IMG/VR virus record: IMGVR_UViG_3300028025_002225
Coordinates: 1-63,339 of that record
Source: a virus
Strand: one strand, 5' to 3'
DNA: 63,339 nt
Shown piece by piece: positions 3,047-45,885 of this stretch (the first letter of the stretch is position 1; each line of letters starts with the position of its first letter). The position numbers and the translations under genes are program-made. Below the pieces are notes generated by a model. That model made no database searches and was not told the origin of the DNA. It saw only the letters and a list, made by a program, of their open reading frames with translations.

Positions 3047-3068
3047 AGACGACCCCTAATAGAGAAAG
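3047..3068 (+). promoter_or_regulatory. Putative phage RNAP promoter before phoH
   Basis: AGACGACCCCTAATAGAGAA is one of eight copies of a motif in this window with core CCCCTAATAG. It lies just downstream of the endolysin stop and just upstream of the PhoH gene, on the same strand. It resembles a T7-class promoter in length and in its A/T-rich element followed by a purine-rich start. It would drive phoH and the tail and internal-protein genes. Confidence 0.7.
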
Positions 3069-9715: not shown

Positions 9716-12289
9716 ATGGGACCACTATCTGCTAAACAGCATAGAGAATACCTAAAGTTTGCCGCACAAGAAGCCAGAGAAACATCTAAGATGGAACGAG
9801 AGGAATCTCGTAAGCAAGAATTACATGAATTAAAACTCATGGAAGCTGCTGGTAAAGCTAATCAATCATTAGGCCATAAAGAACAAGTTCACGAATACAA
9901 GATGGGTACTATGAGTGCTCCATTAAGTAAAGTTAAAAAGCCTAACCCATTAGCTGGCGCTGGTTTATTTAGCCGTGGTCAACACATGCTGCCATACCAA
10001 GTGGAAGATGCTGCTAAGGCACGTAAAGCAGCTAAACAAACTACAGACACTATTCCCGCAATGTTAACTCCTGGGGAAGCAGTTATTCCTGAACCAGCTG
10101 CACAAGACCCTAAGAATAAACCTATCATTAAACAAATGGTACAAGAAGGTAGAAAAGCTAATCGCAGAAAACAACGTGGTTATCGTGATGGCTCAGTTAA
10201 TATTGTTAACTCAGATGTTATTCCTACAAGAGTACAACAAGCTGCAGGCTATAATGAAGGTACTATTCAAGTACCTGTACCCTCATTAGCATACGAGCAT
10301 AGTGATGTTCCTGGCTCTTCATTTGAAGATGGTACTGAGAGAGTATATGATTTTAAAAGGGGTAGTTCTGCTGATTATCACTTTGAAGACGGTATTGAAG
10401 AAGTTCCTAATCCTATTCAGGCAGCTGTTGAAGCTAACAAATTAAGAATAGCAGAAGAAGTTCCAGCTCCTGCAGTAATACCTGTTGAACAACCAGCTTC
10501 TGTAGCAAGTAATGCTACGCCTGTAGCGCCTGAATTACAAGTTGATCCAATTCAAAACGCTGTTAAAGAAAATAATGCAAGAGTAATTTCTGAAAGAACA
10601 ATTGAAGCAGTACCTGTTGTTGACCCTATTAATACTAATGTAGTTAATGCTATAACAACTAATACGCCGCAAGTACCTCAAGCTCAAAATAGATTCCAAG
10701 CATTAGAACCAGTACCCGCTACTGCTGTTGCTGTAGGTGGTAATGAATCTACTGTTAATATTGATGTACCTAAGCCTGTAACAGAAGGAATTGTTGCTCC
10801 TGATATCGTTCCTAAGCCTGTTCTTAAAGCTGAAGATGATGACACTAAACCTGAATATTGGATTAAACACTTAAGAGGCACTCAAGGAGATGTTGATAAA
10901 GCTATTGCTGGTAAAACAGATGAAGATGCTATTAAATCTCTTAAAGATGTTTTTACCTTAAAAGGTTTTAAAAGTATTTTAGGTTTAAATGATCAAGAAC
11001 TAATGCGGTTAGCTGTTACTACTATTGGTGGTAGAGCTATGGGGTATGATACTGCAAAATCATTATCATATGCTGGTAAACAAGCTTTTGATAGTTCTTT
11101 AAAACGTCAGGCTCAAGAGGCCCAAGATAAACGCCAAGATAAACAGCTTAAAGCTCAACAACAACGTGATGATACTAGGTTTGCTATTACTATGGCTAGC
11201 CAATCCAAAGCAGAAAAGAAAGCTGAAGCTGATAGAGAGTTAACTACAAGAAGATTAGATTTAGCTGAAAGAAAAGCGGAAGCAGTAGAACTTGCAAGAG
11301 ATGCTGACAGAAAGTTTCAACAACTTAAAGAAGATAATAAGTGGACTATTGAACAAAATAGAGCAGTTCAATCTAGACATCAACATCTTCAAGATAAATT
11401 CCAAACTCATTTAGCTATGGATGTTCCTAGTAACGTTAGAAAATCAGCTTTAGATATGGTTTATAAATCTAAAACACCTGAAGATTGGTTGTCTAATATG
11501 GAATCAGCTACTATTTTATTAGCAGCTAACACTCGCCATAAAGACCCTAATGCAGGAGCTAATAGCTATAAGCCTCATTGGTCAACTTATGTAATGGGTA
11601 ACGGCGATACAATTCAAGCATCACGTAGACCTGATGGTAATTTAGATGTTGTTACTCCTAAAGGTGTTGTAGTTGCTCCCCCTAATTATGCTGTTAACTA
11701 TGGTGAAAAGAAAGACAATGAAAACTCTGTTAGAGCTATTGTTGAAAACAGAGCTAAAGGTATTAAGGGACTTACCGAAGGTCAAGTAAGCAAAATGAAA
11801 GAAGATGCTGTGTTAATGTCTCAGCAATTCCAACATATTAATCCTACTCAATTTGCTTCTGCTTTAGAAAAGACATTTAGTAACCTTAAAGAGCAAGGCG
11901 AAGGTTTGTCTAGTGGTGCTTTTCAAAAAGCATTTACAACTACAGCCATTGTTGAGCTTAATCCCTCTTCTTCCCATTTATATAGTGGAACAGATAAAGA
12001 AGGTAAATTAGGTTATTTATCAGATAAAGCACAGATTGATATGGGTGATGCTTATCAAAAATTATCTAAACAAAAAGGCAGTTTAGATAAAGCCGATTTA
12101 GATACCAAACAAAAATGGAATAGCTTATCCCAAGAACAAAGAGAAACTATGCACCGTATTGGTAGCAATGGTAAAGGCCAAGATGTTGGAACACGTAGAG
12201 AAGGTTATTCAGCATATAGCGAATTCGTTATTGAAATGGCTAAACCACCAGAGCAACGCAAATATAAATGGTTGCAATCAATTAAATAA
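9716..12289 (+). CDS. Large internal virion protein (857 aa)
   Basis: Residues near 110-145 carry the segment PAMLTPGEAVIPEPAAQ, which I associate with phage internal or tape-like proteins. The middle (about 460-560) is a very charged coiled coil rich in Gln, Lys, Arg and Ala. The rest is Val/Pro/Asn-rich linker and a helical C-terminus. It is first of three very large consecutive proteins (857, 1412 and 1198 aa), the place of T7 gp15/gp16-type ejection proteins. No lytic transglycosylase motif was found. Confidence 0.65.
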   Translation: MGPLSAKQHREYLKFAAQEARETSKMEREESRKQELHELKLMEAAGKANQSLGHKEQVHEYKMGTMSAPLSKVKKPNPLAGAGLFSRGQHMLPYQVEDAAKARKAAKQTTDTIPAMLTPGEAVIPEPAAQDPKNKPIIKQMVQEGRKANRRKQRGYRDGSVNIVNSDVIPTRVQQAAGYNEGTIQVPVPSLAYEHSDVPGSSFEDGTERVYDFKRGSSADYHFEDGIEEVPNPIQAAVEANKLRIAEEVPAPAVIPVEQPASVASNATPVAPELQVDPIQNAVKENNARVISERTIEAVPVVDPINTNVVNAITTNTPQVPQAQNRFQALEPVPATAVAVGGNESTVNIDVPKPVTEGIVAPDIVPKPVLKAEDDDTKPEYWIKHLRGTQGDVDKAIAGKTDEDAIKSLKDVFTLKGFKSILGLNDQELMRLAVTTIGGRAMGYDTAKSLSYAGKQAFDSSLKRQAQEAQDKRQDKQLKAQQQRDDTRFAITMASQSKAEKKAEADRELTTRRLDLAERKAEAVELARDADRKFQQLKEDNKWTIEQNRAVQSRHQHLQDKFQTHLAMDVPSNVRKSALDMVYKSKTPEDWLSNMESATILLAANTRHKDPNAGANSYKPHWSTYVMGNGDTIQASRRPDGNLDVVTPKGVVVAPPNYAVNYGEKKDNENSVRAIVENRAKGIKGLTEGQVSKMKEDAVLMSQQFQHINPTQFASALEKTFSNLKEQGEGLSSGAFQKAFTTTAIVELNPSSSHLYSGTDKEGKLGYLSDKAQIDMGDAYQKLSKQKGSLDKADLDTKQKWNSLSQEQRETMHRIGSNGKGQDVGTRREGYSAYSEFVIEMAKPPEQRKYKWLQSIK

Positions 12290-12306: not shown

Positions 12307-15300
12307 ATGAAACCAACTGACTTAGCACCAATAGAAGAAGATAGTAGTATACTCCCTCCAACCAATGCAACTGCTAATTGGTTAGACCCTGATACTTTTA
12401 AATCTAAAACCACAGGTAAATCAAATCGTGTTCAAGGTTTAAATGCACCTGAAGTTAGTCATATTAAATCCGATAGAATAATTCCTGGACAATATCAAGG
12501 TGAATCTGCTTTAATACCTGAAGCAGCTCGTATATCTGGGTTTACTCAAGATGAAGTTGTGGGTACTGACAAATATACACGAGATATTAATAAGGTTGTT
12601 AATCCAGCAACAGGTGAAAACTTAGGTAATTTTGCAACACGTACTGGATTAGTTGCTCCTAATCCTTTTACAAATGAAAAAGCAATATCAGATAAAAGTT
12701 ATCTTAACGCATTTTCTACATTGTATCCTTCATTAGCTAGCCAAGATCCTGTGCTTGCTGCTGCAAAGGAATCTAAAAAAGCTAAACAAAAAGCCTTAGC
12801 ACAACAAGGGTTACCTGAATACATCTTAGGTTTAAATGCCCCTAATGAAGCTGCATTTGCTTATCAAAAGAATGCTGTGGGTACTGGCGCTCAAACTAGA
12901 ATCCTAGATAGGATGAAAGAGATTGATGCGGACTTAGCTACGTATGGTGGTTCCACTACCATATACGACCCTATGACTGGTCTACCTCAAGGGGAAACTA
13001 CTGCTGGTATTACAGACTCTCAAAGGGCTATGTTGCTTAAAGAAAAAGCACAATTATCTAATGACCTTCAGTATGCTGCTATGGCTCCTGATGTATATAC
13101 TGGTGTTGATGTAAGATCAAAAGACCGTACTATGATGAATAAATCCAAGAGTAATCTTGGAACTATGTATGATAGTATGTGGTTAGGATTGTACGAAAAC
13201 ACTTATGGTCTTGGTCAATTAGCGGGTGATGTTACGGGATGGGAAGCTCTTAGTAAAGCTGCATCTAAAAATGTTAAGCTTAACCAAATGGAAAAAGGTA
13301 ATTTACCTGAAGGACTTTCTTTTAAAGATGTCACTAACGCTAATAGTACTTGGGATACTATTTCTACAGGTGCTTCATTTATTGGTGGTCAATTAATTAA
13401 CTCATTACCTTATATTGCTGCCATTACTGGTGCTGAAATAGCTACTGCTGGTATGGCTAGTCCTCTTATTGCTGGAACATTAGCTACTATGCCTGTATCA
13501 GCAATGTATGCAGGTCAATTTTATGCTGAACAACCTGATAATAAAAAAGACCCTATGCTAGCGGTTATGACTGCTATTGGGTCAGGTGTGTTAGATAAGT
13601 TTGGTTTAGATATTGCTTTAGGTGCTAACTTATTTACTAAAGTAGGTGAAAAACAAGCTATTGAAGCTATGATACGTAATAGCGGTGGTGCTTTAGGAAA
13701 AGCAGAGGCAAGACATTTACTTCATACAGAAGCTAAAAGTGAAATTCTTAAACTAACAGGTTTTTCAAATGACTTTGCTATGAAACAAATTAAATCGGCT
13801 GAAGCTATTGCTAAACGAACAGCTGATTTAACCCTTAGAGCAAGTGCAGAATCAGGTACTGAAACATTACAACAAGAATTAGAAATGTTAGGCCAATCAG
13901 GCCAACGTAATTTAAATTATCGTTATACACCTGAATATAAACATCAGCTAATGGAAGCTGCGGGTGGTGGCTTTTTAGTTGGTGGTGCATTTGGTAGTGT
14001 TCATCATGGTATTGATATGGCAGGATGGCATGGCGCTGCTGACTTAATGGCTCTTAATGAAAAGATGTTAGGTGATGCACAAAGATTTCAAGCAGAAAAT
14101 GAATCAGCATTATTAAATGGTACTGGTGGTTATAGGACTGTTCAAGAGATGTCAAGATCTGAAAGTAGATCTGCACAACAAAGCAATTCTCCTGGATTAG
14201 ATAGTATACCTACACATACAGGTTTCTTTAAAGAGACCCTTATTCCAATGTTAACTAGACCATTGTCTCATTTAAGACAGTTAGCTACTGATGCTATCCC
14301 ATCTATTACAAATGAAGATGGTAGCTTTAAAACTAATTTAGCAAAAATTAAAGCTATTATGGGTGGCTATGGTATTCTTCCTGGAGAACATGCTTCAGGA
14401 TTCAGACAAAGATTACTAGGTAAATGGACTGAGGGTATTTCTCTTGATGATTTAGCCGCTGACTTAGGTGTTAGTAGAGAAAAAGCTAAAGAATACGTTC
14501 AACACGCATTTGAAAATGTATGGAGCCAAGGTATAAAAGCTACTGGCGATATAGGTTATAAAATTCAAGCTTGGAAAGATAAGCTAGATATTGCTCATCA
14601 AAATATGATTGATTTAGGTAGAGTGGCGGGTGTAGATGTTACTTCTATTGATTCACCTAACGCATTATTTAATGCTGCCGAAGTGGATCCTGCTCAATGG
14701 GCTGCTAATAAACTAAATATCTTAACTGAAATGGTTAATGCAGGAGCTGATCAAGGTTCTGCTAGAGCTGCAATTAATAACCTTACTTCTAAAAATAAAC
14801 AAGAAGCTAATTTAGCAAGGGATTATTTAAATCAATACGGTTTATTTACTAATCCTAATTTAAGCCATTTGTTTAAACAAGGTGTCTTTGATAATATAGA
14901 ACACCATAAAGACAGAATAGCTAATGCTATTATGGCTAATACTTATTTTGGAAAGAATGGTCAAGTCCTAGCTAAATTATTAAAACAAGCCTATGATAAT
15001 AATGAGTTTGAAAATGAAGCTGACTACAAAAATACTGCAACTAAAGTAAAAGCTTTTTATGATATTATGAATAATAATTATCATATGCCTAAAGAAGAAA
15101 GCTTATTACATAAAACAATAGGTTGGGCTACAACAATGTCTATGCTAGCTTATTTAGGTAAAGCAGCAGTATCATCTCAAGCAGAAGCTGCAATAGCATT
15201 ATTAGGAACCCCTGGACATTTAATTAGCAAACAATTAGGTACATACTTTAAATCTTATTTTAAGGAAGCAAAAGCAGACATAAATATGGGTGTATCTTAT

Positions 15301-16545
15301 GCAGCATCTCGTGCTGGTATTGATATGCTAAGATCAATTCCAAGTACTACGCTACAACAAAGGCTAGATGCTCTTGTTTCATTACAACAAAAACCTGGTT
15401 TATCTTTAAAAGAACATGAAGAGATTGAACAAGAAGTTAATCAATTAACTAAACAGTACTTTCATGAAAGTTTAATATCTAGATTAGGATACACAGAAAC
15501 AGGTGCTGGTGCAGCATTAAGATATGATTATGCTAATACATCTGCTGGTATTCAAAGAAAAGTTATGGGTATATTTGCTAAGGCAATTTCTTTAAGAGCA
15601 CAAACTGATGCTAATCGTATTGCTGTATTAACAGTAGGTTCAGATATTATGGCTACGCAACTAAGATCGTTAGCTATGATTCCCGCTGCTAATAGAGCAG
15701 CTATGTTTGAATCTGGTATGGGTTTAACTAAAGAACAAGCACAATCTTTAACTGAGTTACAAGCTTATGGCTTAGATGTAAATGGCTTCTTAACCTTAAT
15801 GGATAAAATGCCTGATTTAAATCCATTTTCTAATGACTTTATGAGCTTAGAAGCTAATAGTCCTGAAGCACAACACCTACAAGATAACGTAGCTACTGCC
15901 CTTGGCAATATGGTTGATTCAAGAATTGTTAACCCACAAGCGTTTAATACACCATTAATATTTAACGACCCTAGATTTAGATTGTTAACCGCTATGGGTA
16001 GATTTATGGCTACAGCTCAAGCAGTTGTATTACCTAGATTGTATAAACAATATTTATTAGAAGGTAATATGGCTATGAAATACAGTGCATTTACTACTAT
16101 AGGTATGGCTATTATTGCTGGTCAATTAGTTAATATGCTTAAGAACAGTTTGTCTTATGGTGATGATGATAGTCCTTACGTTAAATCTTCTGTTAAGAAA
16201 GCACAAAGAGTTTTATATAGTTCTGGTTTATTAGGACAAGGTGAAAGATTGATTGAACAAATAAGTCCCTTATATGATTTCAATAGAGCACCTAACTTCT
16301 TTGATAAGACAACTGCTAAAGGGAAAGTTATTGAAGGTAAACCTGGAGAATGGGCTTATGAAAAAGTCAAAGGGTTATCTCCTCAAGCATCTTGGGCAGC
16401 TAGCGTAGGAGAAGGTATGTATAAATTAAGTGAGGGTAACACAGAAAAGGGTGTTAAACAACTTGCCAAAGCAGCACCTGTAATGGGTAGCTTCCCAATA
16501 ACTCAGCAGGAGTTTGCTAACATGTTTAAGAAAGAAGGTAAATAA
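12307..16545 (+). CDS. Very large internal virion (ejection) protein (1412 aa)
   Basis: An AAAGGAG site precedes the ATG at 12307. The protein has several hydrophobic, small-residue-rich helices around residues 350-400 and more near 938-965 and 1260-1280. Between them are long amphipathic helices, a pattern of T7 gp16-like proteins that build a transient channel through the inner membrane. No transglycosylase or protease motif was found. It shares its last base with the next ATG (TAATG), so the two are translationally coupled. Function inferred from size, order and hydrophobicity. Confidence 0.65.
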   Translation: MKPTDLAPIEEDSSILPPTNATANWLDPDTFKSKTTGKSNRVQGLNAPEVSHIKSDRIIPGQYQGESALIPEAARISGFTQDEVVGTDKYTRDINKVVNPATGENLGNFATRTGLVAPNPFTNEKAISDKSYLNAFSTLYPSLASQDPVLAAAKESKKAKQKALAQQGLPEYILGLNAPNEAAFAYQKNAVGTGAQTRILDRMKEIDADLATYGGSTTIYDPMTGLPQGETTAGITDSQRAMLLKEKAQLSNDLQYAAMAPDVYTGVDVRSKDRTMMNKSKSNLGTMYDSMWLGLYENTYGLGQLAGDVTGWEALSKAASKNVKLNQMEKGNLPEGLSFKDVTNANSTWDTISTGASFIGGQLINSLPYIAAITGAEIATAGMASPLIAGTLATMPVSAMYAGQFYAEQPDNKKDPMLAVMTAIGSGVLDKFGLDIALGANLFTKVGEKQAIEAMIRNSGGALGKAEARHLLHTEAKSEILKLTGFSNDFAMKQIKSAEAIAKRTADLTLRASAESGTETLQQELEMLGQSGQRNLNYRYTPEYKHQLMEAAGGGFLVGGAFGSVHHGIDMAGWHGAADLMALNEKMLGDAQRFQAENESALLNGTGGYRTVQEMSRSESRSAQQSNSPGLDSIPTHTGFFKETLIPMLTRPLSHLRQLATDAIPSITNEDGSFKTNLAKIKAIMGGYGILPGEHASGFRQRLLGKWTEGISLDDLAADLGVSREKAKEYVQHAFENVWSQGIKATGDIGYKIQAWKDKLDIAHQNMIDLGRVAGVDVTSIDSPNALFNAAEVDPAQWAANKLNILTEMVNAGADQGSARAAINNLTSKNKQEANLARDYLNQYGLFTNPNLSHLFKQGVFDNIEHHKDRIANAIMANTYFGKNGQVLAKLLKQAYDNNEFENEADYKNTATKVKAFYDIMNNNYHMPKEESLLHKTIGWATTMSMLAYLGKAAVSSQAEAAIALLGTPGHLISKQLGTYFKSYFKEAKADINMGVSYAASRAGIDMLRSIPSTTLQQRLDALVSLQQKPGLSLKEHEEIEQEVNQLTKQYFHESLISRLGYTETGAGAALRYDYANTSAGIQRKVMGIFAKAISLRAQTDANRIAVLTVGSDIMATQLRSLAMIPAANRAAMFESGMGLTKEQAQSLTELQAYGLDVNGFLTLMDKMPDLNPFSNDFMSLEANSPEAQHLQDNVATALGNMVDSRIVNPQAFNTPLIFNDPRFRLLTAMGRFMATAQAVVLPRLYKQYLLEGNMAMKYSAFTTIGMAIIAGQLVNMLKNSLSYGDDDSPYVKSSVKKAQRVLYSSGLLGQGERLIEQISPLYDFNRAPNFFDKTTAKGKVIEGKPGEWAYEKVKGLSPQASWAASVGEGMYKLSEGNTEKGVKQLAKAAPVMGSFPITQQEFANMFKKEGK

Positions 16546-19500
16546 TGGTTGGAAAAGTTTCAACACCATCTACAACCAATGTAAATGCTCCTATAGGCGG
16601 CAAACTATCGGTTCAAGATTTAATGAACCAAGCGGTAGATCGTTATGGTCAGGCATCTACCCCAGCAATTCCTGGATCAGAAGCTGCGGCTAAAGGTATT
16701 AGTGAATACAATCCTGTTCCCTTAGTCCCTTCACCATTACCAGCCCCTGGAATGAAAGGGGTTGTAGAGTCAAATAGAATTACCGCTGAGTCTTCTCCTC
16801 AAGCATTAGCAGATGTTACCCAGTCTCCTCTTGCTAGTATACCTAGAGTAGAACCTGTATTCAATGAAAGAGGTATGGCGGTTATTGATCCTAATACTGG
16901 TGAGTATGCTACTCAACAAATCCCTATGGAAAGATTTGGTGAAGAGCAGGAAGCTCAATTAGATTCAGTACCTAACTTTGATCCTGCGTTAATGGAAGAT
17001 AACTCTGTAGAAATGGCTAAGGCTATTCTAATTACTAACAACAAAGGCGACTTTGATGAAGTAACTATTAGTAGGCTTGCTGATAAAATGGCTCCTACCC
17101 TACAGACAATAGCTAATAACACTGAACACGATTTGTTTAATCCAACAGAAGCTACTATTGGTAGTACCCAACTAGGATATGAGAATGTTCCTGTAGGTAT
17201 TCAAATACAACATCAATTTAATATTCCACAAGAACAAGTAAAACCATTATCAACTATTATGGGTATTGCTCATGTGTTAGCAACTAATGAAACTAATCAG
17301 TTTAAAGAAAGCCCTAATACTGGTTACACAAAAGAAGATGGTTTAATCTTAGATTCTAGTGGCGCAGTAATTGAAGATGCCGTTCCTCAAGTTAATTTAA
17401 TTAACTCAATGATTCATTCTGCTCAAAATGCTTTAGAAAGAGTTGGTATTGATCTACCAGTAGAGGCTGTAAGACAATTAGCAGAAGCTAAAGTACAAGC
17501 AGAAATCTATAATGGTAATCATCGTTTAATGCAAGATAAAAACGGTAGATGGGTTCTTGGTTCTACTCCTAGAGTTAAAGACTATGCCAGAGAACTTAAG
17601 TATTTATCTGAAGCATTAGCAGGGGATATGCGTAGATCTCCCCCATCTAAAGTACCTCAATTATCAGGCTCTAACTTTTTAAAACCAGGAAGTCAAACTA
17701 GTAGAAATACTATGAAAGTTCCTGGGATGATTAGTAGAACAGCAGAAGTAGTTAAAGATATCTTTGGTTCTATAGCAGAAAAGTTTCAAAAGAAAAATGT
17801 TATATCTACCTATAAGCAACTTGAAGATATCCGAAACAATATGGTTGATGATGAGTCAGGTTACTACTCTACTAGTGTGTTTGCTAAAAGACACAAAATG
17901 GATCAGGCAACATACAAGAACTTATTAGCTCGTGTATCTCCTCCTAAAGATTACGATAACAATAAACCTGAAGACAGAAGTAAATTGTTTGATGCAAGAA
18001 TTAGTCATGCAAGAGACCAAATGGATTCAAGAATGAAGGCTCTTGAAAACGATATCAAGAAAGCTTCTGGATTAAAGGGCTTGTTATATAGCGCATTCAT
18101 TCATAGTAGTGCTAACCAACGTTTCTTTAGAAACAGTGATGGCACTGATATCATGGCTTCTAAAGGTGGTGTACGTGAGATGCTTAACTTTGGTGTACAA
18201 GGTCATGTTATCTCTACTTCATTATTTAATCCAACAAGGATTAAAGAACTACAACAAAGAGCTGAAGGTGTATTTAGTAAAGTAGGTCAGGCAAGACAAG
18301 ATGAGCTAATGAAAATGACACCATTTGACAGAGCTACTCTAGGTCTTATGGAAATGGCTGTTGTTAACTATTACTCTTTTTCTGCTGATCCTTCTGTTCA
18401 AAAGAAAAATATTAAGAAGTATTCTGAGCTAGAATTAGTTCAGATGTATACTCCTGAAATAGGTCAACACTTAGCTTCGTTAGGTAAAGACTACAATGAT
18501 TGGTTAAAAGGTGAACTACCTAATGACCATCCTTTTGTTGTAGATCAACTATCTAAAACACCTAGAGGGGAAGCGCAAGGGTTTCAAAACCTATGGGATG
18601 ATATGTTCCAGCTAATGTCTGCTTCACTTAATCCTGCTGCAACTAGAACACCTGTAAGATTATCTGCATTAAATTTTGATGATGGTAATCAAAACGGTAT
18701 CTTCTTACAAGCATTATATTCAGGTAATACTGACACAGCAACAAGGCTTGGTACATTTAACCCGTCATTAGCTGACATGCGTGGTCATGCTTTAAATATT
18801 ATCTATGATCAATTAGATGAATTACTACCTGATCAAGAACAAAAGAAAGAAGCATGGGCTAAATTCTTTACAGAGGCATATAACAAATTACCTGATAAAT
18901 TAGCTGCTGATTTATTCAAAGTACCTATGATGCAAAATTCTTATGGTAAAGATGCTGGTATGTTCTTTGAACATGTCAGGGAATTCTTAGAGGACTCTCA
19001 AGAGTATTCAACTATCTATAGTGATGTTATAGCTGAAGCATATAATAACGATATTAATGCAGCATCATCTGATTTAGCAAATGCTATGGAAGCTACTTTA
19101 AGGAAGACTATTAATCCTAAGTTTGTTGAAGCTTTAAAACGAGTAGGTCGTATGTTTGCTATTATGGATACCGTCCCTACTATCCTTGGTACTGCGGGAG
19201 ATCATTGGGTATTTAGTTCTGTTGACTGTGGGTTTATACCTGATTACAGTAAAAATGCTATTAGCCAAGCAATAACTCCTGAAGGTCAAGAGTATGTTGA
19301 AAAAGTAATTGGTCAAACTACTACAGGTTATATGACACCTGCTGGTCGTGTTGAAGCACCAATGGCTAGACGAGGTTTAAATCCTAATGCTTCTAAGGGC
19401 ATACAAAGATTCTTCAATAAGAAAACAAAAGTGTTTGATGTCTTTGAAAATGCAATTGGATCTGCTTTATCTAGACAAATGGGTGTTATGCCTATTCAAT

Positions 19501-20141
19501 CTACTGATGGCGACTTGATTAAGCTTATGATGCTTGCTGTTAATTCTAAATTAAAATTACCTATGCCTGTGTTTACTGTGCATGATGCGTTAATTACTAC
19601 AGCAGACTCTATGCACCTGTATCGTAATGCTTATAACAACATTGCTATACCACAAGCTATAGGCGAGATATCTAAATTTGGAATTAAATTAGATGAAGCT
19701 TATACTAAAGCTAAAGATAATTTGTTTAAAAAGTTATCAGGAGAACAATACATTGGTATTGGTGAGAATGGTGATTACCCTTCTCTTGGAGGTGTCTTTG
19801 ATGAGATCTCTAAAAAGATAGATAGCCCAACTTATAAAGAAGTTTTCTTAAGACGATCACATAATGATGAATCAAATTGGAATGATTATGTAGCTAAACA
19901 AAAAGAAATATTAAGGAGAGCTACAGAAGCAGGTTGGATTCAAGGTAAACCTAACTTAGCCGTTGATGCTAAGTCATTCAGAGAATTATTTAATCTTTCT
20001 GAAGAAGTATTTGGTATGGGTGGATCCAATAATAAATTCAAACAATGGGTTAATAACTTTTCAACTGATGTAGAACAAGGTTGGAAAGAGTTTAAACGTA
20101 ATACTGGTAAAGCTGGTATAGCCCAAATGACTCATGCTTAA
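16545..20141 (+). CDS. Virion-type single-subunit RNA polymerase fused to ejection-protein-like N-terminus (1198 aa)
   Basis: The C-terminal half carries, in order and at T7-like spacing, the catalytic motifs of single-subunit RNA polymerases. Motif A is FDDGNQNGIFLQAL (Asp713; T7 Asp537). Motif B is FKVPMMQNSYG (Lys792 and Tyr800, 8 apart as in T7 Lys631/Tyr639). Motif C is TVHDALIT (His1013-Asp1014; T7 His811-Asp812), preceded by QSTDGDLIKLMM, matching T7 HSQDGSHLRK. SANQRFF (520s) may stand for the T/DxxGR motif. The N-terminal 400 residues are linker-like. It is the last gene of the internal virion protein operon, so an N4-like virion RNAP delivered with the DNA is inferred. The phage also encodes a normal T7-type RNAP at 25339-27540. 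Confidence 0.8.
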   Translation: MVGKVSTPSTTNVNAPIGGKLSVQDLMNQAVDRYGQASTPAIPGSEAAAKGISEYNPVPLVPSPLPAPGMKGVVESNRITAESSPQALADVTQSPLASIPRVEPVFNERGMAVIDPNTGEYATQQIPMERFGEEQEAQLDSVPNFDPALMEDNSVEMAKAILITNNKGDFDEVTISRLADKMAPTLQTIANNTEHDLFNPTEATIGSTQLGYENVPVGIQIQHQFNIPQEQVKPLSTIMGIAHVLATNETNQFKESPNTGYTKEDGLILDSSGAVIEDAVPQVNLINSMIHSAQNALERVGIDLPVEAVRQLAEAKVQAEIYNGNHRLMQDKNGRWVLGSTPRVKDYARELKYLSEALAGDMRRSPPSKVPQLSGSNFLKPGSQTSRNTMKVPGMISRTAEVVKDIFGSIAEKFQKKNVISTYKQLEDIRNNMVDDESGYYSTSVFAKRHKMDQATYKNLLARVSPPKDYDNNKPEDRSKLFDARISHARDQMDSRMKALENDIKKASGLKGLLYSAFIHSSANQRFFRNSDGTDIMASKGGVREMLNFGVQGHVISTSLFNPTRIKELQQRAEGVFSKVGQARQDELMKMTPFDRATLGLMEMAVVNYYSFSADPSVQKKNIKKYSELELVQMYTPEIGQHLASLGKDYNDWLKGELPNDHPFVVDQLSKTPRGEAQGFQNLWDDMFQLMSASLNPAATRTPVRLSALNFDDGNQNGIFLQALYSGNTDTATRLGTFNPSLADMRGHALNIIYDQLDELLPDQEQKKEAWAKFFTEAYNKLPDKLAADLFKVPMMQNSYGKDAGMFFEHVREFLEDSQEYSTIYSDVIAEAYNNDINAASSDLANAMEATLRKTINPKFVEALKRVGRMFAIMDTVPTILGTAGDHWVFSSVDCGFIPDYSKNAISQAITPEGQEYVEKVIGQTTTGYMTPAGRVEAPMARRGLNPNASKGIQRFFNKKTKVFDVFENAIGSALSRQMGVMPIQSTDGDLIKLMMLAVNSKLKLPMPVFTVHDALITTADSMHLYRNAYNNIAIPQAIGEISKFGIKLDEAYTKAKDNLFKKLSGEQYIGIGENGDYPSLGGVFDEISKKIDSPTYKEVFLRRSHNDESNWNDYVAKQKEILRRATEAGWIQGKPNLAVDAKSFRELFNLSEEVFGMGGSNNKFKQWVNNFSTDVEQGWKEFKRNTGKAGIAQMTHA

Positions 20142-20150
20142 TTAAATAAA

Positions 20151-20191
20151 AAACCCCTCAAGGAGTAATCCTTAAGGGGTTATTTTTTTTT
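20151..20191. terminator. Bidirectional terminator between convergent operons
   Basis: The stem ACCCCTCAAGG / CCTTAAGGGGT has an A run on its left and a run of about nine T on its right, so it can terminate both strands. It lies exactly between the + strand virion operon (ends 20141) and the - strand middle operon (ends 20190). The stem is almost the same as the one at 40892-40930. Confidence 0.85.
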
Positions 20192-22605: not shown

Positions 22606-22677
22606 GGGTACTCGGTAATGGATTTAAACCATTATCTCTCAATTAATCGTTGATTGCTTTACTTAAGCTAACCGAGC
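22606..22677 (-). tRNA. Atypical or degenerate tRNA (apparent ATT anticodon)
   Basis: The acceptor (GCTCGGT/ACCGAGT), D arm and T arm fold as a tRNA, but the anticodon loop reads CGATTAA with G in place of the invariant T33. The T loop is TTTAAAT instead of TTC-RA-x, and the 3' end is A-CCC rather than CCA. The apparent anticodon would be ATT (Asn), unusual in bacteria. It may be a decaying tRNA or a tRNA-like element. It is the first unit after the promoter at 22681. Confidence 0.6.
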
Positions 22678-22680: not shown

Positions 22681-22700
22681 TTCTCTATTAGGGGACGTCT
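22681..22700 (-). promoter_or_regulatory. Putative phage RNAP promoter before the tRNA cluster
   Basis: Minus strand reads AGACGTCCCCTAATAGAGAA, matching the phage promoter consensus and almost identical to the copy at 3047. It overlaps the 3' end of the thioredoxin-like gene and lies just upstream of the tRNA genes. Confidence 0.72.
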
Positions 22701-23382: not shown

Positions 23383-23403
23383 CTCCTATTAGGGGCCAAC
23401 TGG
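23383..23403 (-). promoter_or_regulatory. Putative phage RNAP promoter before the GIY-YIG gene
   Basis: Minus strand reads CCAGTTGGCCCCTAATAGGAG, a promoter motif copy with G in place of T before CCCC. It lies between the RNR stop and the ATG at 23372. Its GGAG also sits 8-10 bases from that ATG and could double as a ribosome site. Confidence 0.65.
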
Positions 23404-25320: not shown

Positions 25321-25340
25321 TTCGGTATTAGGGGCCATCT
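25321..25340 (-). promoter_or_regulatory. Putative phage RNAP promoter before RNR
   Basis: Minus strand reads AGATGGCCCCTAATACCGAA. The core CCCCTAATA is kept, but the start region (CCGA) differs from the other copies, so it may be weaker. It overlaps the stop of the RNA polymerase gene, about 30 bases before the RNR start. Confidence 0.6.
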
Positions 25341-27540
25341 AACAGAAAAAGTATTTAGAATCATAGACTTGTTTCAAATCTAGATCACCTTCTTCTGGAG
25401 GAGGATAATTAAAGCTTTCTTTATTAAGCATTAAGGTATCCATAAGATTACTAAAGAAGTCTTCAATATCATATTGAGCTATGAAGGTCATCTTAGTTAC
25501 TTCTTGTAGAAAATCAACTTCGCTAGCATGAGTGCTAAAGCTATCATGGACAGCACCAAAATTACCGTTGAAAATGGAGATAACATTAGCCATATGAGCC
25601 GCATCATAACTATGAACGACATTAGGACTAATCCCAGAAGCAAAAGATCTACGGCAGGGGACTTTTTCACCTGTTTCTTTATTGAGGACATCCACTTTGA
25701 TGACATGTCGGATCCTTCCTTTAGGGTTACCAGCAATACCTTTAATAGTACCTCTGTGTTTACGTTCATGTTGTAAGAATGCCTTGTATACTACAGGGAA
25801 TCCTGAAGGGGTATGCCATGACAATTGGTTACGACCAGAATTAAGCTCATGTTCAGCAATTTTCTGTAAAAACTTAGTAGTCTTTAATGGGCCAGAGCAT
25901 ACAGTGTTAATAGCTTTAATTAAGTTACCTGCTAACTCTCCACATTCAGACTCAGTAATACCATACTTAACAGTGAAACCTTCTACGTGGCAGTCATCAT
26001 ACATATTTTTAGCAATACGTTGTTTGCCTGCTGAGTACGCACGAGTCATAGAACCTCGTTTAGCAATACCTTTTCGGATGTCTTTCATAGGCATCTTTTT
26101 ATTTTCAAAGTAGTCAGGCATTAAGCCAATAAGTTCTTTAGCTACTGCTACATAGAAGTCTTTCTGGATAGGTGTAGGTACTAATGATACTAGTGTACCT
26201 GCTTGTTTGTCTCTAGACATAGCTGCTAAATGCTGCCATCCGTTATTACTACCATCAATAGGAATAGGAAAGCCAGACATATAAGGTTTACCTTTAAGCT
26301 TTGATTGAATATAGTTTTTTATTTCTAAACAACAAGCAAGGAAGCTATAGGGTTTCTCAGCAGAGATATCAATAGCATTATGTTTAGATACACTTGCTAT
26401 TAACTCTAGATTGTTATCTACCCATGTAGCTCTATCTTCAAGAGTCATTTTATCTAAAGAAATAGTATCAAGACCCTCTTCTTTAAGATATGTTTTGTAG
26501 TCAGTTGTAAAATAGCTTGGTAGCTTATTAGCATTAAATGATTTGTTATAGCATCCTGCTGTATGAACCTTTAACCAAAAGTATCCACGATCATCTACGT
26601 GTTTTTTATCAGCAAATAAAAAGAGACTACGAGCTAAGTCACTACCCTGAAACTCTAAGAAAGATTCAGCATAATATACTCGACCACGATAGTCACATGA
26701 TACTTCTTGATAGAAGGTTTGATCACCAATTAATTCTGCCTTCTTTACTACTTGATTGTATTCAAAGTATTTACTTAGCATACGTTGTAGCTTAGGGTCT
26801 TTCTTACCAAGAAAGGTAGTACCATCCATATGCTTAAGCTTCTTAGGTAAGTTTAGGTTTTCATAATGAATATTATATTCATAAATAACACTATCACTAT
26901 CAGTTAAAGACAATACCTCTGTTGGTTTAGCCTTAAGCATACCTTGTAAGACTCCTTGATTAAGTACCCAAGGCTGTTGGCGTAATGTCTCAAGTGATTT
27001 GACAAAAGGTTTATCAAGGTATTCATGAAATAGTTTGCTGTTAGTCCATCCCTTAATAAAAGGTTCTTTAGTAAGGTTACTATACAGTCCAGCAATAGGT
27101 AACAATGGTTCAAATGAAGTACCTATTAATGTTGGTTTAATATTGTCAGGCATATTGACAATACGTACCATGTATGGGGCTTTAAACCCTTCATACTCAC
27201 GGAAGATATCAATCAATCCATCTTGGAGAAACGTTTCGAGTAAAACATCTCCAAGAGCGAGAGTTGATTTGATGTTGTGTTCATCAGTTCCAATAGCTCT
27301 TGCGATTCGCTTTCCGATAAGGTCACTTGCAAAAGTAAGTTTAACTGATGCGCTATGAGTTGCATTCTTGTTGCGAATACAGTAGCGGAGAAGTGTGTCC
27401 CACGATTCATTTACAAACCTTTCTAAGTCATATTCCCACGTTGGATGATGTGCTAATAGTCGAGCACCTTCATTATAAATCTTATCTGAGTTGACTACGA
27501 CTTTAGCTACTCGTTCAGATAAGTATTGTACTGGATTCAT
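25339..27540 (-). CDS. T7-type DNA-dependent RNA polymerase (733 aa)
   Basis: All single-subunit RNAP motifs are present: DYRGRVY (about 283-289), motif A PIDGSNNGWQHLAAM (Asp429), motif B AKRGSMTRAYS (Lys494 and Tyr502, 8 apart), and motif C AVHDSFSTHA (His665-Asp666) preceded by SGISPNVVHSYDAAHM. It ends YFFC, like the FAFA end of T7 RNAP. At 733 aa it is shorter than T7 (883), as in many marine podoviruses. It probably recognises the eight promoter motifs in this window. It lies between the primase-helicase and RNR genes with no promoter copy of its own directly upstream. Confidence 0.95.
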   Translation of the reverse strand: MNPVQYLSERVAKVVVNSDKIYNEGARLLAHHPTWEYDLERFVNESWDTLLRYCIRNKNATHSASVKLTFASDLIGKRIARAIGTDEHNIKSTLALGDVLLETFLQDGLIDIFREYEGFKAPYMVRIVNMPDNIKPTLIGTSFEPLLPIAGLYSNLTKEPFIKGWTNSKLFHEYLDKPFVKSLETLRQQPWVLNQGVLQGMLKAKPTEVLSLTDSDSVIYEYNIHYENLNLPKKLKHMDGTTFLGKKDPKLQRMLSKYFEYNQVVKKAELIGDQTFYQEVSCDYRGRVYYAESFLEFQGSDLARSLFLFADKKHVDDRGYFWLKVHTAGCYNKSFNANKLPSYFTTDYKTYLKEEGLDTISLDKMTLEDRATWVDNNLELIASVSKHNAIDISAEKPYSFLACCLEIKNYIQSKLKGKPYMSGFPIPIDGSNNGWQHLAAMSRDKQAGTLVSLVPTPIQKDFYVAVAKELIGLMPDYFENKKMPMKDIRKGIAKRGSMTRAYSAGKQRIAKNMYDDCHVEGFTVKYGITESECGELAGNLIKAINTVCSGPLKTTKFLQKIAEHELNSGRNQLSWHTPSGFPVVYKAFLQHERKHRGTIKGIAGNPKGRIRHVIKVDVLNKETGEKVPCRRSFASGISPNVVHSYDAAHMANVISIFNGNFGAVHDSFSTHASEVDFLQEVTKMTFIAQYDIEDFFSNLMDTLMLNKESFNYPPPEEGDLDLKQVYDSKYFFC

Positions 27541-29154: not shown

Positions 29155-29299
29155 AGTCTCTTTCTTCTTTAAGTTCTCGGATAAACTTACGGCGTTCCTT
29201 AGCTTCTTTTTGTGTAGATTTCTTTTTATGAAATTGATTCTTGAAATCTTCTTTAAGGCTAATGTATTCTTTTAGAGGTTCAGGTTTTTTATTCTTCAT
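29147..29299 (-). CDS. Small highly charged protein (50 aa)
   Basis: Starts MKNKKPEPLKEYISLKEDF and is 50 residues of nearly continuous Lys/Glu/Arg helix. It overlaps the upstream GIY-YIG gene by a short TATGA junction and the primase-helicase start by 8 bases. Function unknown; it could modulate replication proteins. The coupled overlaps are the support. Confidence 0.6.
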   Translation of the reverse strand: MKNKKPEPLKEYISLKEDFKNQFHKKKSTQKEAKERRKFIRELKEERDYE

Positions 29300-29736
29300 A
29301 GCTTTGGTTTAAGAAATTTTACTGCCCCAATGTTCCCATTGTAGTAAAGGCGCTCTCCATCAGGTGTTTCAGCTCTCGAAAGAACTTCACATTCCCACTG
29401 CTCTTGGACTTCCCTATACGTAAGCATTCCTTTTCCGAATACCCACTCGTAGATAACAAAAGTAAATGAATTAAATCCGTAGTACTCAATATCATCAAGG
29501 AGTTCTCTGCACGAGGATTTATAATCTCTCCAATCACTTTCTCTTCGAGTGATGGTTCTTCGTTTAGATCCAGGTAGTAGTCGTTTTGATTCACTTATTA
29601 ATTGCTTTCTTCCAATGTATCGTCTTCCTGTTTGGAGGTTTTCGATATAGTAGATGAATCCAAAGGCTCCGTCTGGTCTGTCTGTGAGGGGGTGCCAATG
29701 TCCGTATGACTCAGCACTGAGGCATTGCTGTTCCAT
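29296..29736 (-). CDS. GIY-YIG-like nuclease-domain protein (146 aa)
   Basis: GFIYYIENLQTGRRYIGRKQL (about residues 26-46) is a GIY-YIG core, followed by W-x-D-Y-K-S-S and an acidic helix with EVQEQWECEVL carrying the expected catalytic Glu. Phages use such small nucleases for DNA breakdown or junction processing, or as mobile elements. Its first 46 codons overlap the end of the exonuclease gene by 139 bases in another frame, and no later ATG exists before the domain. Confidence 0.7.
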   Translation of the reverse strand: MEQQCLSAESYGHWHPLTDRPDGAFGFIYYIENLQTGRRYIGRKQLISESKRLLPGSKRRTITRRESDWRDYKSSCRELLDDIEYYGFNSFTFVIYEWVFGKGMLTYREVQEQWECEVLSRAETPDGERLYYNGNIGAVKFLKPKL

Positions 29737-30476
29737 GTTAATCTTTCTTTGAGTTCTTCAAAAGTTAGGGGACGCAAGTCTGATTCAAATTCCCTAATGT
29801 AAATACAGTTAGCGCATCTCACAAAGTTATTATACCACAAGTCACCTTGTTTTGCTTTCCAGATTTCAATAACCTTATTCCACAGTTGGGTATTAGGTGT
29901 ATCTTTAATTAGCTTTTCAGCTGTCTTAGTTCCTACACCACGTAACCCTTGGATGTTATCTGTAGCATCTCCTGTCAGGATTTGAGTCATCAAGAAACGA
30001 TAAGCCTCTGCGTCATCCATGAAGTATATTTCACCTGTTCTAAAGTTATGATGCCATCCAGGAATAGCATTCAAGTCTTTATCAATGTGAGATACAATAT
30101 ACAACTGACCTTCATCAAGAGCTTTCTTAGCGGTAATACCACATAGATCATCTGCTTCACCGTTGTCACTAAGAACACAGAAGTCTTTAGCGTATTCATA
30201 TAGCATATCAATACGATCTTTTACTTCAGGTTCAATAGTGTCTTTACGGTTTCCCTTGTAAGCAATATCAACTTCATATCTAAAGTTGTTAGCACCCTTA
30301 ATAAACACCACTCCATTAGAAGCATTTACGTTCTCCATAATCTCTTTTAGTTTATTATCGAGTGCTTTCTTACATTTAGCTGGAGATGGTTCAACGAAAG
30401 CAATCTGATACATGATACTATCTGCATCTATGATTGCCAGATTAAACTGAATATCATTATCAGTGTACTTCTGCAT
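29598..30476 (-). CDS. 5'-3' exonuclease, T7 gp6/FEN family (292 aa)
   Basis: The start at 30476 (MQKYTDND) has a GGAAAG site and overlaps the polymerase stop by 17 bases. FEN-type acidic residues are visible: AIIDADSIMYQ, DNGEADDLCG, HIDKDLNA and ILTGDATDN, followed by the helix-hairpin-helix GLRGVGTKTAEKLI. It degrades host DNA and removes primers. The C-terminal 45 residues are Ser/Thr/Glu/Asp-rich and are the part overprinted by the GIY-YIG gene. Confidence 0.9.
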   Translation of the reverse strand: MQKYTDNDIQFNLAIIDADSIMYQIAFVEPSPAKCKKALDNKLKEIMENVNASNGVVFIKGANNFRYEVDIAYKGNRKDTIEPEVKDRIDMLYEYAKDFCVLSDNGEADDLCGITAKKALDEGQLYIVSHIDKDLNAIPGWHHNFRTGEIYFMDDAEAYRFLMTQILTGDATDNIQGLRGVGTKTAEKLIKDTPNTQLWNKVIEIWKAKQGDLWYNNFVRCANCIYIREFESDLRPLTFEELKERLTWNSNASVLSHTDIGTPSQTDQTEPLDSSTISKTSKQEDDTLEESN

Positions 30477-32319
30477 ATGTCTTTCCAATGTGAGCATCAC
30501 CGCCCATACAATTAATGCCAAACCATTTAGGCGCTTCAGTGAATGCTTCAATGGCTAACTCTTTAACTTCTTCTGCGTATTCATCTTTAACTACAACAGC
30601 TAGTTCATCATGATAATGAATAGAGAAGTAGAATTGTATACCACGCTCTTGTAGCTTACGTTTAAGATAAACAATAGCTGCTTTACAAGTAACACCTTCA
30701 GCTGTCTGTAGTAGGTAGTTTAATACTTGATGACCAGAGCTAACAAAGATTAATCTACCATCAATACCACGGATGAAAGCTTTATCCTTACCAAACGCAT
30801 TAGATGTTCTTTCAAACATACCATTGAGTTTGTCTTTAAGTTCTTTTAATCCTGGAATAGCACTTTCAAACTTATCTTGAGAGGCTTTACCAATGACAGC
30901 ATCACGTTTACCTGTAAGAATTAAACCAGATTTACCTGCACCTGCACCAAACAGATATGCGTATAGCCATGGTTTAGCTGTCTTACGAGAGCAAGGATAG
31001 ATGGTACTTAGAATGTTAGCATTCTTTGTATGGACATCTCCATTAATTACTTCATTAGTGAATTCGTCATTACCAATATAATGGCATAAACCACGCATCT
31101 GGTTACCAGCAGAATCGGCTCCAACGATTGAGGTACCAGATTCGCATATGAGAAGACTTCGCATCTCTTTTCCGTATACTGAATCCACACTAGGCAGATT
31201 AGCAACAAGCTCATGCCTACAACGGAAAGTTGGTGTACCAATAGTCCACATACGACCATGAAGACGATTATCACGGGATCCTTTAACAGCTTCAATCCAA
31301 CCCTCCAAGATACCTTTCCTTGATCTGATTGTATAGTATTCACTAACCAGCATAGCATCAGGGCCAAGCCGTTCAAGAGATGACTCGGTAATCTTAGGAC
31401 TTTTATTAACAAACTTCCCATTGATTTTCTCCACATTCCATTCATCAGGTACCCAGCCAAGACTATACAACCAGTCTTTAACTACTTCAATACTACCTAC
31501 TTTGCCTTGTTCAAAAGCAATACGACAATATGCACCATCAATAGGTCTATCTTCTTTACCTGACTCTTGTGTATATCCAAAATGTTTTACTGTTGCTACA
31601 GTATAGCATCCATCCTTACGCCATGCAGGTTCTTTATACTCATCTGCTTTATCCATCTTTAAACAACGCATACCAATTCGAGGCTCAAGTACAGCTTCAA
31701 TAGCATCAAGCTTATTATTGATCTGCATCAATAGCGTTTGAGCAGCAGCCATATCAAACATCCAACCTTTTTGTTGTATCTCTGATTCAATCTGAGCAAA
31801 TTCCATCTCAACATCCATACCTGTTTTGTACATAGGATGTTTGTTGATGATCTTAGTTGCTTCTTCTGTAAGTACCTTATAAACCTTTACATTAAGCTCT
31901 ACATCTCGGATACAATATGTAAGCATTTCTTTACTGTATTTATCAAAGGTATTGAATTCTAATTTAGGAAACCCTAATTTAGAACCCCATCCTTCAAGAC
32001 CATGCTTATGATCTCGTTTATATTGATTAAGCTGAGACAATACCCAGGTATCAATTACCTTGGTGGTACTAGCAGGAGTCCATCCAGTGATATATTTGAG
32101 TACAGTAAAATCATAGCCAATAATGTTGTGACCGTAAATAATGTCAGCAGTTTTAAGAAACTCAAGACCTTCTTGTAGAGATGGCAGTTCATTATCATAA
32201 TCAGAAAAAGAATAAATAGTTCCAGTATCAGAATCAATAGCTACCATTAGCCAAATAGTATCTACATTAGGCATAAGCCCGTTTGTTTCTATGTCTACAC
32301 ATAGCCTTAATTTTTTCAT
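30460..32319 (-). CDS. T7-type family A DNA polymerase with 3'-5' exonuclease (619 aa)
   Basis: Exonuclease motifs: VDIETNGL (Asp9, Glu11), GHNIIGYDF (Asn65, Asp70) and YCIRDVELN (Asp139). Polymerase motifs: A VGADSAGNQMRGL (Asp402), B KTAKPWLYAYLFGAG (447-461), and C IHYHDELAVV (His570-Asp571-Glu572). It replicates the phage genome with the primase-helicase and SSB; T7 uses host thioredoxin as clamp, and this phage carries its own thioredoxin-like gene. Size is somewhat below T7 gp5 (704). Confidence 0.95.
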   Translation of the reverse strand: MKKLRLCVDIETNGLMPNVDTIWLMVAIDSDTGTIYSFSDYDNELPSLQEGLEFLKTADIIYGHNIIGYDFTVLKYITGWTPASTTKVIDTWVLSQLNQYKRDHKHGLEGWGSKLGFPKLEFNTFDKYSKEMLTYCIRDVELNVKVYKVLTEEATKIINKHPMYKTGMDVEMEFAQIESEIQQKGWMFDMAAAQTLLMQINNKLDAIEAVLEPRIGMRCLKMDKADEYKEPAWRKDGCYTVATVKHFGYTQESGKEDRPIDGAYCRIAFEQGKVGSIEVVKDWLYSLGWVPDEWNVEKINGKFVNKSPKITESSLERLGPDAMLVSEYYTIRSRKGILEGWIEAVKGSRDNRLHGRMWTIGTPTFRCRHELVANLPSVDSVYGKEMRSLLICESGTSIVGADSAGNQMRGLCHYIGNDEFTNEVINGDVHTKNANILSTIYPCSRKTAKPWLYAYLFGAGAGKSGLILTGKRDAVIGKASQDKFESAIPGLKELKDKLNGMFERTSNAFGKDKAFIRGIDGRLIFVSSGHQVLNYLLQTAEGVTCKAAIVYLKRKLQERGIQFYFSIHYHDELAVVVKDEYAEEVKELAIEAFTEAPKWFGINCMGGDAHIGKTYAEVH

Positions 32320-33960: not shown

Positions 33961-33981
33961 ACTCCTATTAGGGGACAACTG
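33961..33981 (-). promoter_or_regulatory. Putative phage RNAP promoter before the MazG/deaminase/replication block
   Basis: Minus strand reads CAGTTGTCCCCTAATAGGAGT, a strong match to the consensus. It lies 8 bases upstream of the small gene starting at 33953 and would drive MazG, deaminase, DNA polymerase, exonuclease and helicase genes. Confidence 0.72.
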
Positions 33982-41476: not shown

Positions 41477-41499
41477 AGAGTAGTCCCCTAATAGAGATA
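41477..41499 (+). promoter_or_regulatory. Putative phage RNAP promoter before the small terminase-like gene
   Basis: AGAGTAGTCCCCTAATAGAGATA; identical to the copy at 45863 over 20 bases. It drives the isolated + strand gene at 41547, with a terminator directly after that gene. It faces the opposite promoter at 42043. Confidence 0.75.
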
Positions 41500-42042: not shown

Positions 42043-42061
42043 TCCCTATTAGGGGACAACT
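42043..42061 (-). promoter_or_regulatory. Putative phage RNAP promoter pointing to SSB
   Basis: Minus strand reads TAGTTGTCCCCTAATAGGGAG, the closest copy to the consensus. It lies just downstream of the gene ending at 42075. Its transcript crosses the small terminase-like gene antisense before reaching SSB at 41445, so it is convergent with the promoter at 41477. Confidence 0.75.
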
Positions 42062-44555: not shown

Positions 44556-44584
44556 CTTGGTACCTACCCCAAGTGGTCTCACTT
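44556..44584 (-). repeat. Repeated early-region hairpin element, copy 1
   Basis: A 29-base unit that matches 44936-44964 at 28 positions, with further similarity beyond (CTTCACG on the minus strand). On the minus strand it can form AAGTG-AGAC-CACTT and ACTTGG...CCAAGT hairpins. It ends 34 bases before the ATG at 44522. Promoter, RNA-processing site or leader structure are all possible. Confidence 0.75.
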
Positions 44585-44935: not shown

Positions 44936-44964
44936 CTTGGTACTTACCCCAAGTGGTCTCACTT
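44936..44964 (-). repeat. Repeated early-region hairpin element, copy 2
   Basis: Same element as at 44556-44584 with one difference (minus strand GTAAG instead of GTAGG), placed at a similar distance (about 32 bases) before a start codon. The repetition at matched positions before two different genes suggests a regulatory function. Confidence 0.75.
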
Positions 44965-45318: not shown

Positions 45319-45356
45319 AGAGCAAGATCGCTCTCCATTGGGTTGTTACACCCAAT
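45319..45356 (-). promoter_or_regulatory. Tandem hairpins in the leader of the early membrane-protein gene
   Basis: Two short perfect inverted repeats: ATTGGGT/ACCCAAT (45337-45356) and AGAGC/GCTCT (45319-45334), between the stop at 45368 and the ATG at 45290. No T run follows, so not a simple terminator. They may be processing or promoter structures like the element at 44936. Confidence 0.45.
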
Positions 45357-45367: not shown

Positions 45368-45832
45368 TTAGGCACGAATAGCAACCAACAGTGCCTCAAG
45401 AGCAGCAGCACGAGAGTTGTCACCATTAACCTTCCAGTCAGCAACAAACTTAGAGTTGCATTCATCGTCCTCCTCAAAAGCCAAAGACACAATGGCAGGC
45501 CACACAGCAGCAACAACAGGCGGCAAAGCAAAGTCAACAAACGCCTGACCAGACCCGTAAGAACAGACAGACACAGACAAAGCACCGTCCAACGCAACCT
45601 CCGACAAGAACCGAACAGCAGCGCCAAAGGAAGGAGCAAACGAAGACAGAGACACAGAGACAACAGGAGAAGAAGAAGAAAAAGAGACCACGGAACACCT
45701 CCAAGAGAGAAGACAGGGCAACAGCGCCCAACGAGACCCGACCAGCAGCACGACACCCCAGCACGAGACAGGGGGGTCACACGACACAGAAGGGGGAGAA
45801 CAAACAAACACATGATTCTTTTTCACACACAA
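45368..45832 (-). CDS. Unknown early protein with A-depleted coding strand (about 150 aa)
   Basis: This frame ends SKFVADWKVNGDNSRAAALE...AIRA and has many codons ending in T, as in the neighbouring genes, so it is preferred over the overlapping frame at 45346-45813. Over roughly 45,480-45,790 the coding strand has almost no A and is much more GC-rich than the rest. The middle is Ser/Val/Ala-rich with cysteines. The start is uncertain (TTG 45832 or GTG 45826, no clear ribosome site). No family recognised. First gene of the early block. Confidence 0.5.
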   Translation of the reverse strand: MCVKKNHVFVCSPPSVSCDPPVSCWGVVLLVGSRWALLPCLLSWRCSVVSFSSSSPVVSVSLSSFAPSFGAAVRFLSEVALDGALSVSVCSYGSGQAFVDFALPPVVAAVWPAIVSLAFEEDDECNSKFVADWKVNGDNSRAAALEALLVAIRA

Positions 45833-45862: not shown

Positions 45863-45885
45863 AGAGTAGTCCCCTAATAGAGAAA
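45863..45885 (+). promoter_or_regulatory. Putative phage RNAP promoter before large terminase
   Basis: AGAGTAGTCCCCTAATAGAGAAA, identical to the copy at 41477 over 20 bases, 16 bases before the large terminase ATG. It would drive the packaging and capsid operon up to the terminator after the capsid gene. Confidence 0.75.

Follow-up and report, generated by a model that had tools for sequence, protein, structure and literature searches.

We analysed a 63,339-nucleotide stretch of DNA from an uncultured phage (IMG/VR record IMGVR_UViG_3300028025_002225, positions 1 to 63,339; hereafter the window), focusing on an open reading frame at 16545-20141 that encodes a 1198-amino-acid (aa) protein, the last of three large proteins that close the virion operon. 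A first-pass annotation, made from the sequence alone, had read this protein as a second single-subunit RNA polymerase (RNAP) placed among the ejection proteins, based on motifs A, B and C of the T7/N4 family. Its open reading frame, coordinates and residue numbers (D713, K792, Y800 and H1013-D1014) were correct on re-examination. We identified a fourth motif absent from that annotation – R526...K540...R544, equivalent to 'R...NPQSAK..R' in the virion RNA polymerase (vRNAP) of phage N4 and invariant in 23 homologues. The gene, its motifs and the hairpin that follows it are listed here.

16545-20141, + strand: predicted compact virion-type single-subunit RNAP gene, 1198 aa, with the polymerase at residues ~45-1196 (AlphaFold2, Foldseek/VIA-align and hhalign)
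18120-18176, + strand: motif T region (R526, K540, R544), aligned with N4 vRNAP R..NPQSAK..R
18681-18683, + strand: motif A catalytic Asp713 (DGNQNG), aligned with N4 D559 and T7 D537
18918-18944, + strand: motif B, Lys792 to Tyr800-Gly (KVPMMQNSYG), aligned with N4 K670/Y678 (KNPLTITIYG) and T7 K631/Y639
19581-19586, + strand: motif C His1013-Asp1014 (VHDA), invariant, aligned with N4 D951 and T7 H811-D812
20152-20181, unstranded: intrinsic-terminator-like hairpin with a 13-pair stem and T tails on both sides

The A-to-B and B-to-C spacings are 79 and 214 residues here, compared with 94 and 173 in T7 and 111 and 273 in N4. Lying behind the polymerase gene, the terminator-like hairpin closes the virion operon and separates it from the convergent replication operon.

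Searches with the single 1198-aa sequence against PHROGs, and with phmmer against the PDB, returned no polymerase match, and a hidden Markov model search of the PDB likewise missed the family. Pfam gave a weak, sub-threshold match to DNA_pol_A (E 0.0032) restricted to motif C, and hhalign found nothing against single N4 or single T7 sequences; family profiles were required. The empty single-sequence searches would be expected if short motifs had co-occurred by chance in an unrelated ejection protein, and the Pfam match if the protein were a family A DNA polymerase.

Structure prediction bears on both alternatives. An AlphaFold2 model built on the family alignment without templates reached a mean predicted local distance difference test (pLDDT) score of 85.1 and a predicted template modelling (pTM) score of 0.85. 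The top PDB matches listed by Foldseek were all single-subunit RNAPs (yeast mitochondrial, E 2.7e-16; T7, 2.8e-13; N4 vRNAP, 1.2e-10), and the BFVD matches were phage RNAPs and N4-type vRNAPs. VIA-align superpositions gave Z scores of 22.5 for T7 RNAP (551 residues), 22.6 for yeast mitochondrial RNAP (666 residues) and 15.8 for N4 mini-vRNAP (741 residues); they cover model residues 45-1196, and the whole protein is therefore predicted to be polymerase. The first-pass annotation had named the lack of a polymerase fold, or motifs lying apart, as outcomes that would speak against it; the model is instead that of a polymerase over its full length, with the motifs in register with those of N4 vRNAP and T7 RNAP. 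From the full-length superposition and the alignment, motifs A, B and C would come together in one active site. A right-hand fold over most of the length, with the motif A Asp, motif B Lys and Tyr and motif C Asp ordered and aligned, places the protein in the single-subunit RNAP superfamily, and on this model we regard such a fold as nearly certain.

The confident full-length fold match refutes chance co-occurrence of motifs. A profile score that greatly exceeds those of shuffled and unrelated controls also speaks against it, and D713, Y800, H1013 and D1014 are unchanged in 23 homologues, far above chance; we give this explanation a negligible probability. A family A DNA polymerase is very improbable: motif A (DGxxxG) and motif B (K-x7-YG) have RNAP-type sequences, RNAPs account for all the top structural matches listed, and the phage encodes a separate family A DNA polymerase at 30460-32319.

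Scans of viral contigs yielded ~30 relatives, with identities from 80% down to 17%. No relative was found among 84,980 bacterial and archaeal genomes, so these genomes provide no host or prophage evidence. The only cultured relative is gp33 of Roseobacter phage CRP-7 (MK613349; 22.6% identity over ~600 aa), which is annotated as a hypothetical protein; in the CRP-7 paper the sole RNAP reported is the T7-like gp30 (PMC6918029). Like the window protein, gp33 occupies the third place of its operon in a genome with a T7-like RNAP; unlike it, gp33 has an arginine at the K792 position. The 844-residue core of a CRP-7-branch member, modelled from an alignment that took in main-branch sequences, reached pLDDT 73 and matched T7 RNAP (Z 13.4, 475 residues) and N4 mini-vRNAP (Z 11.4, 518 residues).

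Across 23 aligned homologues spanning 17-80% identity, R526, K540, R544, D713, Q716, Y800, Q985, D988, H1013, D1014 and N1028-I1033 are invariant. K792 is a lysine in 17 of these and an arginine in the six CRP-7-branch members. This substitution would suit an ejection protein that derives from a polymerase but no longer catalyses, acting instead as part of the inner membrane or of a DNA channel, and so would the much faster divergence of the virion-type RNAP (36% identity in L004) than of the adjacent T7-type RNAP of the same genomes (81%). Loss of catalysis would, however, leave unexpected the invariance, down to 17% identity, of both catalytic aspartates, the motif B tyrosine and the motif T arginine and lysine. 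We consider such a loss improbable; judging from its conserved residues, the protein is presumably catalytically competent.

Aligned by hhalign with a profile of ten N4-like vRNAPs, the family scored 60 (E 2.4e-5, or 5.4e-6 when restricted to the core). One local stretch of this alignment holds all four motifs (T, A, B and C) in collinear order and pairs D713 with D559, K792 with K670, Y800 with Y678, D1014 with D951 and the R526/K540/R544 region with R..NPQSAK..R. Among the controls, none of 30 column shuffles exceeded 22.9, the reversed profile scored 20.5, and the families of the two neighbouring proteins, used as unrelated phage families, scored 19.8 and 33.6. Against a profile of 57 T7-type RNAPs the score was 35, near background, with motifs A, B and C again in register. 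Motif B (KVPMMQNSYG) is vRNAP in style (compare KNPLTITIYG and KYPLMVLIYG), and a VHDA/IHDA motif C also occurs in some Schitoviridae vRNAPs. The N4-profile score fell from 60 to 43 once the CRP-7 branch was removed. The affiliation with N4 rests on sequence profiles, since the structural Z scores favour T7 and mitochondrial RNAPs; because of these higher scores and the lower score without the CRP-7 branch, we consider the RNAP domain of N4 vRNAP the likely, but not certain, nearest known relative. Origin by recent duplication of the T7-type RNAP encoded in the same genome was also considered and rejected, as the T7-type profile similarity is near background.

N4 vRNAP (gp50; RNAP domain residues 998-2103; PDB 2PO4, 3C3L and 9PNQ) has a polymerase part of similar size (~1,100 aa), whose motifs T, A, B and C align in register with those described here and whose motif B has the same K-x-P-[LM] style. 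It too is a third ejection protein that ends the virion operon, in a genome with a second, T7-family RNAP. The two differ in length: N4 vRNAP has ~3500 aa, and N4-type vRNAPs range over ~2,800-3,800 aa (PMC10654107), whereas the 1198-aa protein lacks the long N- and C-terminal parts and is thus not a giant chain with N- and C-terminal ejection domains. Motif A reads FDDGNQNG here and ExDARQSN in the CRP-7 branch, departing from the ExDGxxxG signature of PMC10654107, and similarity to N4 vRNAP lies below detection by Pfam, PHROG or BLAST. The partner RNAP is a single chain here and a gp15/gp16 heterodimer in N4, and the hairpin promoters that are a feature of N4 vRNAP are here candidates. T7 and mitochondrial RNAPs share the whole-length fold and the catalytic residues (Z 22); they differ in a near-background profile match, and the window gene lies in a virion operon of a genome with a separate, true T7-type RNAP.

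The proteins that precede the polymerase gene, and the portal protein, are encoded as follows.

9716-12289, + strand: first large protein, 857 aa, in the same position in relatives, whose copies have PHROG lytic and internal-virion-protein matches
12307-16545, + strand: second large protein, 1412 aa, in a conserved position, with an N-terminal staphylococcal-nuclease-like (SNase-like) domain at residues ~32-144
48072-50375, + strand: portal protein, phrog_1216 like the N4 portal (E 2.1e-78 here, 2.8e-271 for N4 gp59)

Relatives of the 857-aa protein carry endolysin or transglycosylase domains, including an 'internal virion protein with endolysin domain'. The profile of the 1412-aa family matched SNase structures in the PDB (E 4e-8) with the catalytic D, R, E and R aligned, and this protein may be an injected nuclease. 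The order first large protein, second large protein, RNAP holds in every relative whose locus extends that far, including CRP-7, and a T7-type RNAP lies downstream on the opposite strand in every relative locus that is long enough. The placement in an ejection operon made in the first-pass annotation is supported by this gene order and by the lytic and nuclease domains of the two preceding proteins. The polymerase gene is the third of the ejection-protein operon; the vRNAP holds this same rank among the ejection proteins of N4 and has been called unique to Schitoviridae/N4-like phages (PMC12633501). T7 gp16, the third internal virion protein of that phage, is similarly positioned as the last, large ejection protein; it is not described as a polymerase and recruits host RNAP (PMC12633501).

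The operon's composition also bears on whether the polymerase enters the virion. An active single-subunit RNAP could be made late with the virion genes and stay unpackaged, acting for example in late transcription or replication priming: a polymerase fold and its residues alone are no proof of packaging, and virion operons can include non-structural genes. This explanation must, however, contend with the fixed third place behind lytic- and nuclease-domain proteins, where N4 has its vRNAP (PMC12633501), and with late genes already covered by a T7-type RNAP that has promoter-like sites of its own, and we consider it unlikely. Packaging of the 1198-aa RNAP in the virion is, by its gene position, quite probable.

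The three large proteins sum to 3467 aa (857+1412+1198), as the first-pass annotation had calculated, with the caution that the closeness to the size of N4 vRNAP might be accidental. That caution was well placed: neither the two neighbours nor the 1198-aa protein has detectable homology to the N- and C-terminal parts of N4 gp50, and the match of 3467 to 3500 aa is probably a coincidence. A split N4 gp50 was rejected as the source of the three proteins for the same lack of homology.

Although its portal PHROG is that of N4, the phage is not a Schitovirus, because its capsid and terminase PHROGs differ (major head phrog_1328 versus 1357 in N4; terminase phrog_2 versus 38). In the first large protein the middle is highly variable, and the endolysin, transglycosylase or lytic-tail domains of some relatives were not detected in the window copy. 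The SNase-like catalytic D, R, E and R of the second are kept in 17 relatives.

The ordinary T7-type RNAP reported in the first-pass annotation was confirmed by a PF00940 match, and we identified eight intergenic sites with the core CCCCTAATA, each on the coding strand, before the terminase, virion genes, tRNAs and ribonucleotide reductase.

25339-27540, - strand: T7-type single-chain RNAP, 733 aa, in the replication operon (PF00940 E 3.8e-56; phrog_414 1.6e-95)
45871-45879, + strand: T7-type promoter core CCCCTAATA, upstream of terminase
3053-3061, + strand: T7-type promoter core, upstream of virion genes
41485-41493, + strand: T7-type promoter core
42047-42055, - strand: T7-type promoter core, the first on the early strand, ~3.8 kb from its start
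33966-33974, - strand: T7-type promoter core
25326-25334, - strand: T7-type promoter core, upstream of ribonucleotide reductase
23387-23395, - strand: T7-type promoter core
22686-22694, - strand: T7-type promoter core, upstream of tRNAs

Relatives carry tAGtCGGtaCCTAATAGrGa at comparable places, with 5-9 core-pattern matches per genome, a few of them perhaps due to chance. These CCTAATAG promoter-like sites resemble T7 promoters and would serve the T7-type RNAP. On the early strand of six genomes the first such site lies ~2.6-8.6 kb from the block start and the earliest genes have none; their transcription therefore appears to require another polymerase. Sigma-70-like sites in the early region occur at chance level, for the E. 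coli-type consensus scanned.

Candidate promoters for a vRNAP were sought as hairpins ahead of the early genes. Applied to N4, a hairpin search found hairpins of the known promoter type (GTTGC-ttc-GCAAC and AAGAAGC-tcc-GCTTCTT; biology in PMC4496689) upstream of early genes. The window has the following candidates.

45716-45729, - strand: early leader hairpin GGGC-gctgtt-GCCC, candidate vRNAP promoter or RNA leader
45319-45334, - strand: early leader hairpin AGAGC-gatctt-GCTCT, ~30 nt before ATG, candidate vRNAP promoter or RNA leader

The pattern [4-5 bp stem]-G(A/C/T)TNTT-[stem] precedes the first early genes in all six genomes, usually a few tens of bases before the start codon. Eight such sites lie at 0.17-0.8 kb on the early strand, compared with 37 matches in the remainder of the six genomes, an enrichment that is partly circular in that this class-1 pattern was drawn from the genomes in which it was counted. 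The stems covary (6 double changes versus 0/500 shuffles), and enrichment of any hairpin ahead of early open reading frames was not significant (P 0.08). The recurrent early hairpins have loops of 5-6 nt, not 3 as in N4, and N4-style 3-nt-loop hairpins recur in one relative only (G003). Their likeness to N4 hairpin promoters is suggestive, with the loops differing; that they are vRNAP promoters is a tentative proposal, and an RNA function is equally possible.

Two further leader types were observed. A 43-nt leader (GAGACCACTTGGGGTArGTACCAAG) has two copies right before early start codons, at 44556-44579 and 44936-44959 (- strand), and G003 and G005 have related copies that differ in the stem; it may be an RNA or promoter element. 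A third type, CCTGTAGA-stem-TCTATGGGTA, precedes early genes of L088 (G002), L090 (G004) and L091 (G005).

We propose, with a probability of roughly 0.75, that the 1198-aa protein is a compact stand-alone virion RNAP, injected for early-gene transcription, after which the T7-type RNAP takes over. The RNAP would be packaged in the podovirus capsid as the third ejection protein and injected third, along with the DNA. It would then transcribe the first early block (minus strand, ~45.9 kb leftwards) before phage proteins exist; early transcription would yield the T7-type RNAP, and middle and late genes would be read from the CCTAATAG promoters. Catalysis, packaging, injection and early-gene specificity are the parts of this scheme that we infer, whereas the analysis itself establishes the predicted fold and the homology. 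Several points weigh against it: the arginine in place of K792 in the CRP-7 branch, the dependence of the N4-profile score on that branch, structural scores that place T7 and mitochondrial RNAPs above N4 vRNAP, a case for packaging that rests on gene position, and the prospect that host RNAP could make the early transcripts.

The first-pass annotation had suggested an unusual two-polymerase strategy. The pairing itself is not new, since N4 has a vRNAP and the T7-family RNAPII; what is new is a compact stand-alone vRNAP, its single-chain partner and their occurrence outside Schitoviridae. Our verdict is a real, unusual polymerase, a compact variant of N4 vRNAP outside that family. Polymerases of the virion type thus seem to occur beyond N4's family, and in a form one-third as large as those known. 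A survey of N4-like viruses that discarded proteins <2,500 aa and required ExDGxxxG (PMC10654107) would have overlooked compact vRNAPs, this family included. More speculatively, these phages may form a separate aquatic podovirus lineage with a minimal stand-alone vRNAP, hairpin early promoters of its own (5-6-nt loop) and a single-chain T7-type RNAP as the second enzyme – a reduced or ancestral N4 system. A 1.2k-residue vRNAP with a cultured homologue, CRP-7 gp33, makes several questions accessible to experiment: the parts of N4 gp50 on which injection depends, the way a polymerase gets through the tail and the origin of hairpin promoters. In vitro work would also gain a new, compact RNA polymerase in the 1198-aa protein.

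Other features were observed in the window and its relatives. A fifth tRNA at 22609-22677 (- strand), found by Rfam and not by ARAGORN, adjoins four other tRNAs. A SegE-type GIY-YIG endonuclease gene at 29296-29736 (- strand; PF19835 E 6.9e-29) lies between the primase-helicase and 5'-3' exonuclease genes. The early region of L095 (G006:50500-58437) contains, at ~1280-1720 of the reverse complement, several short tandem repeat arrays with units of 13, 14 and 22 bp.

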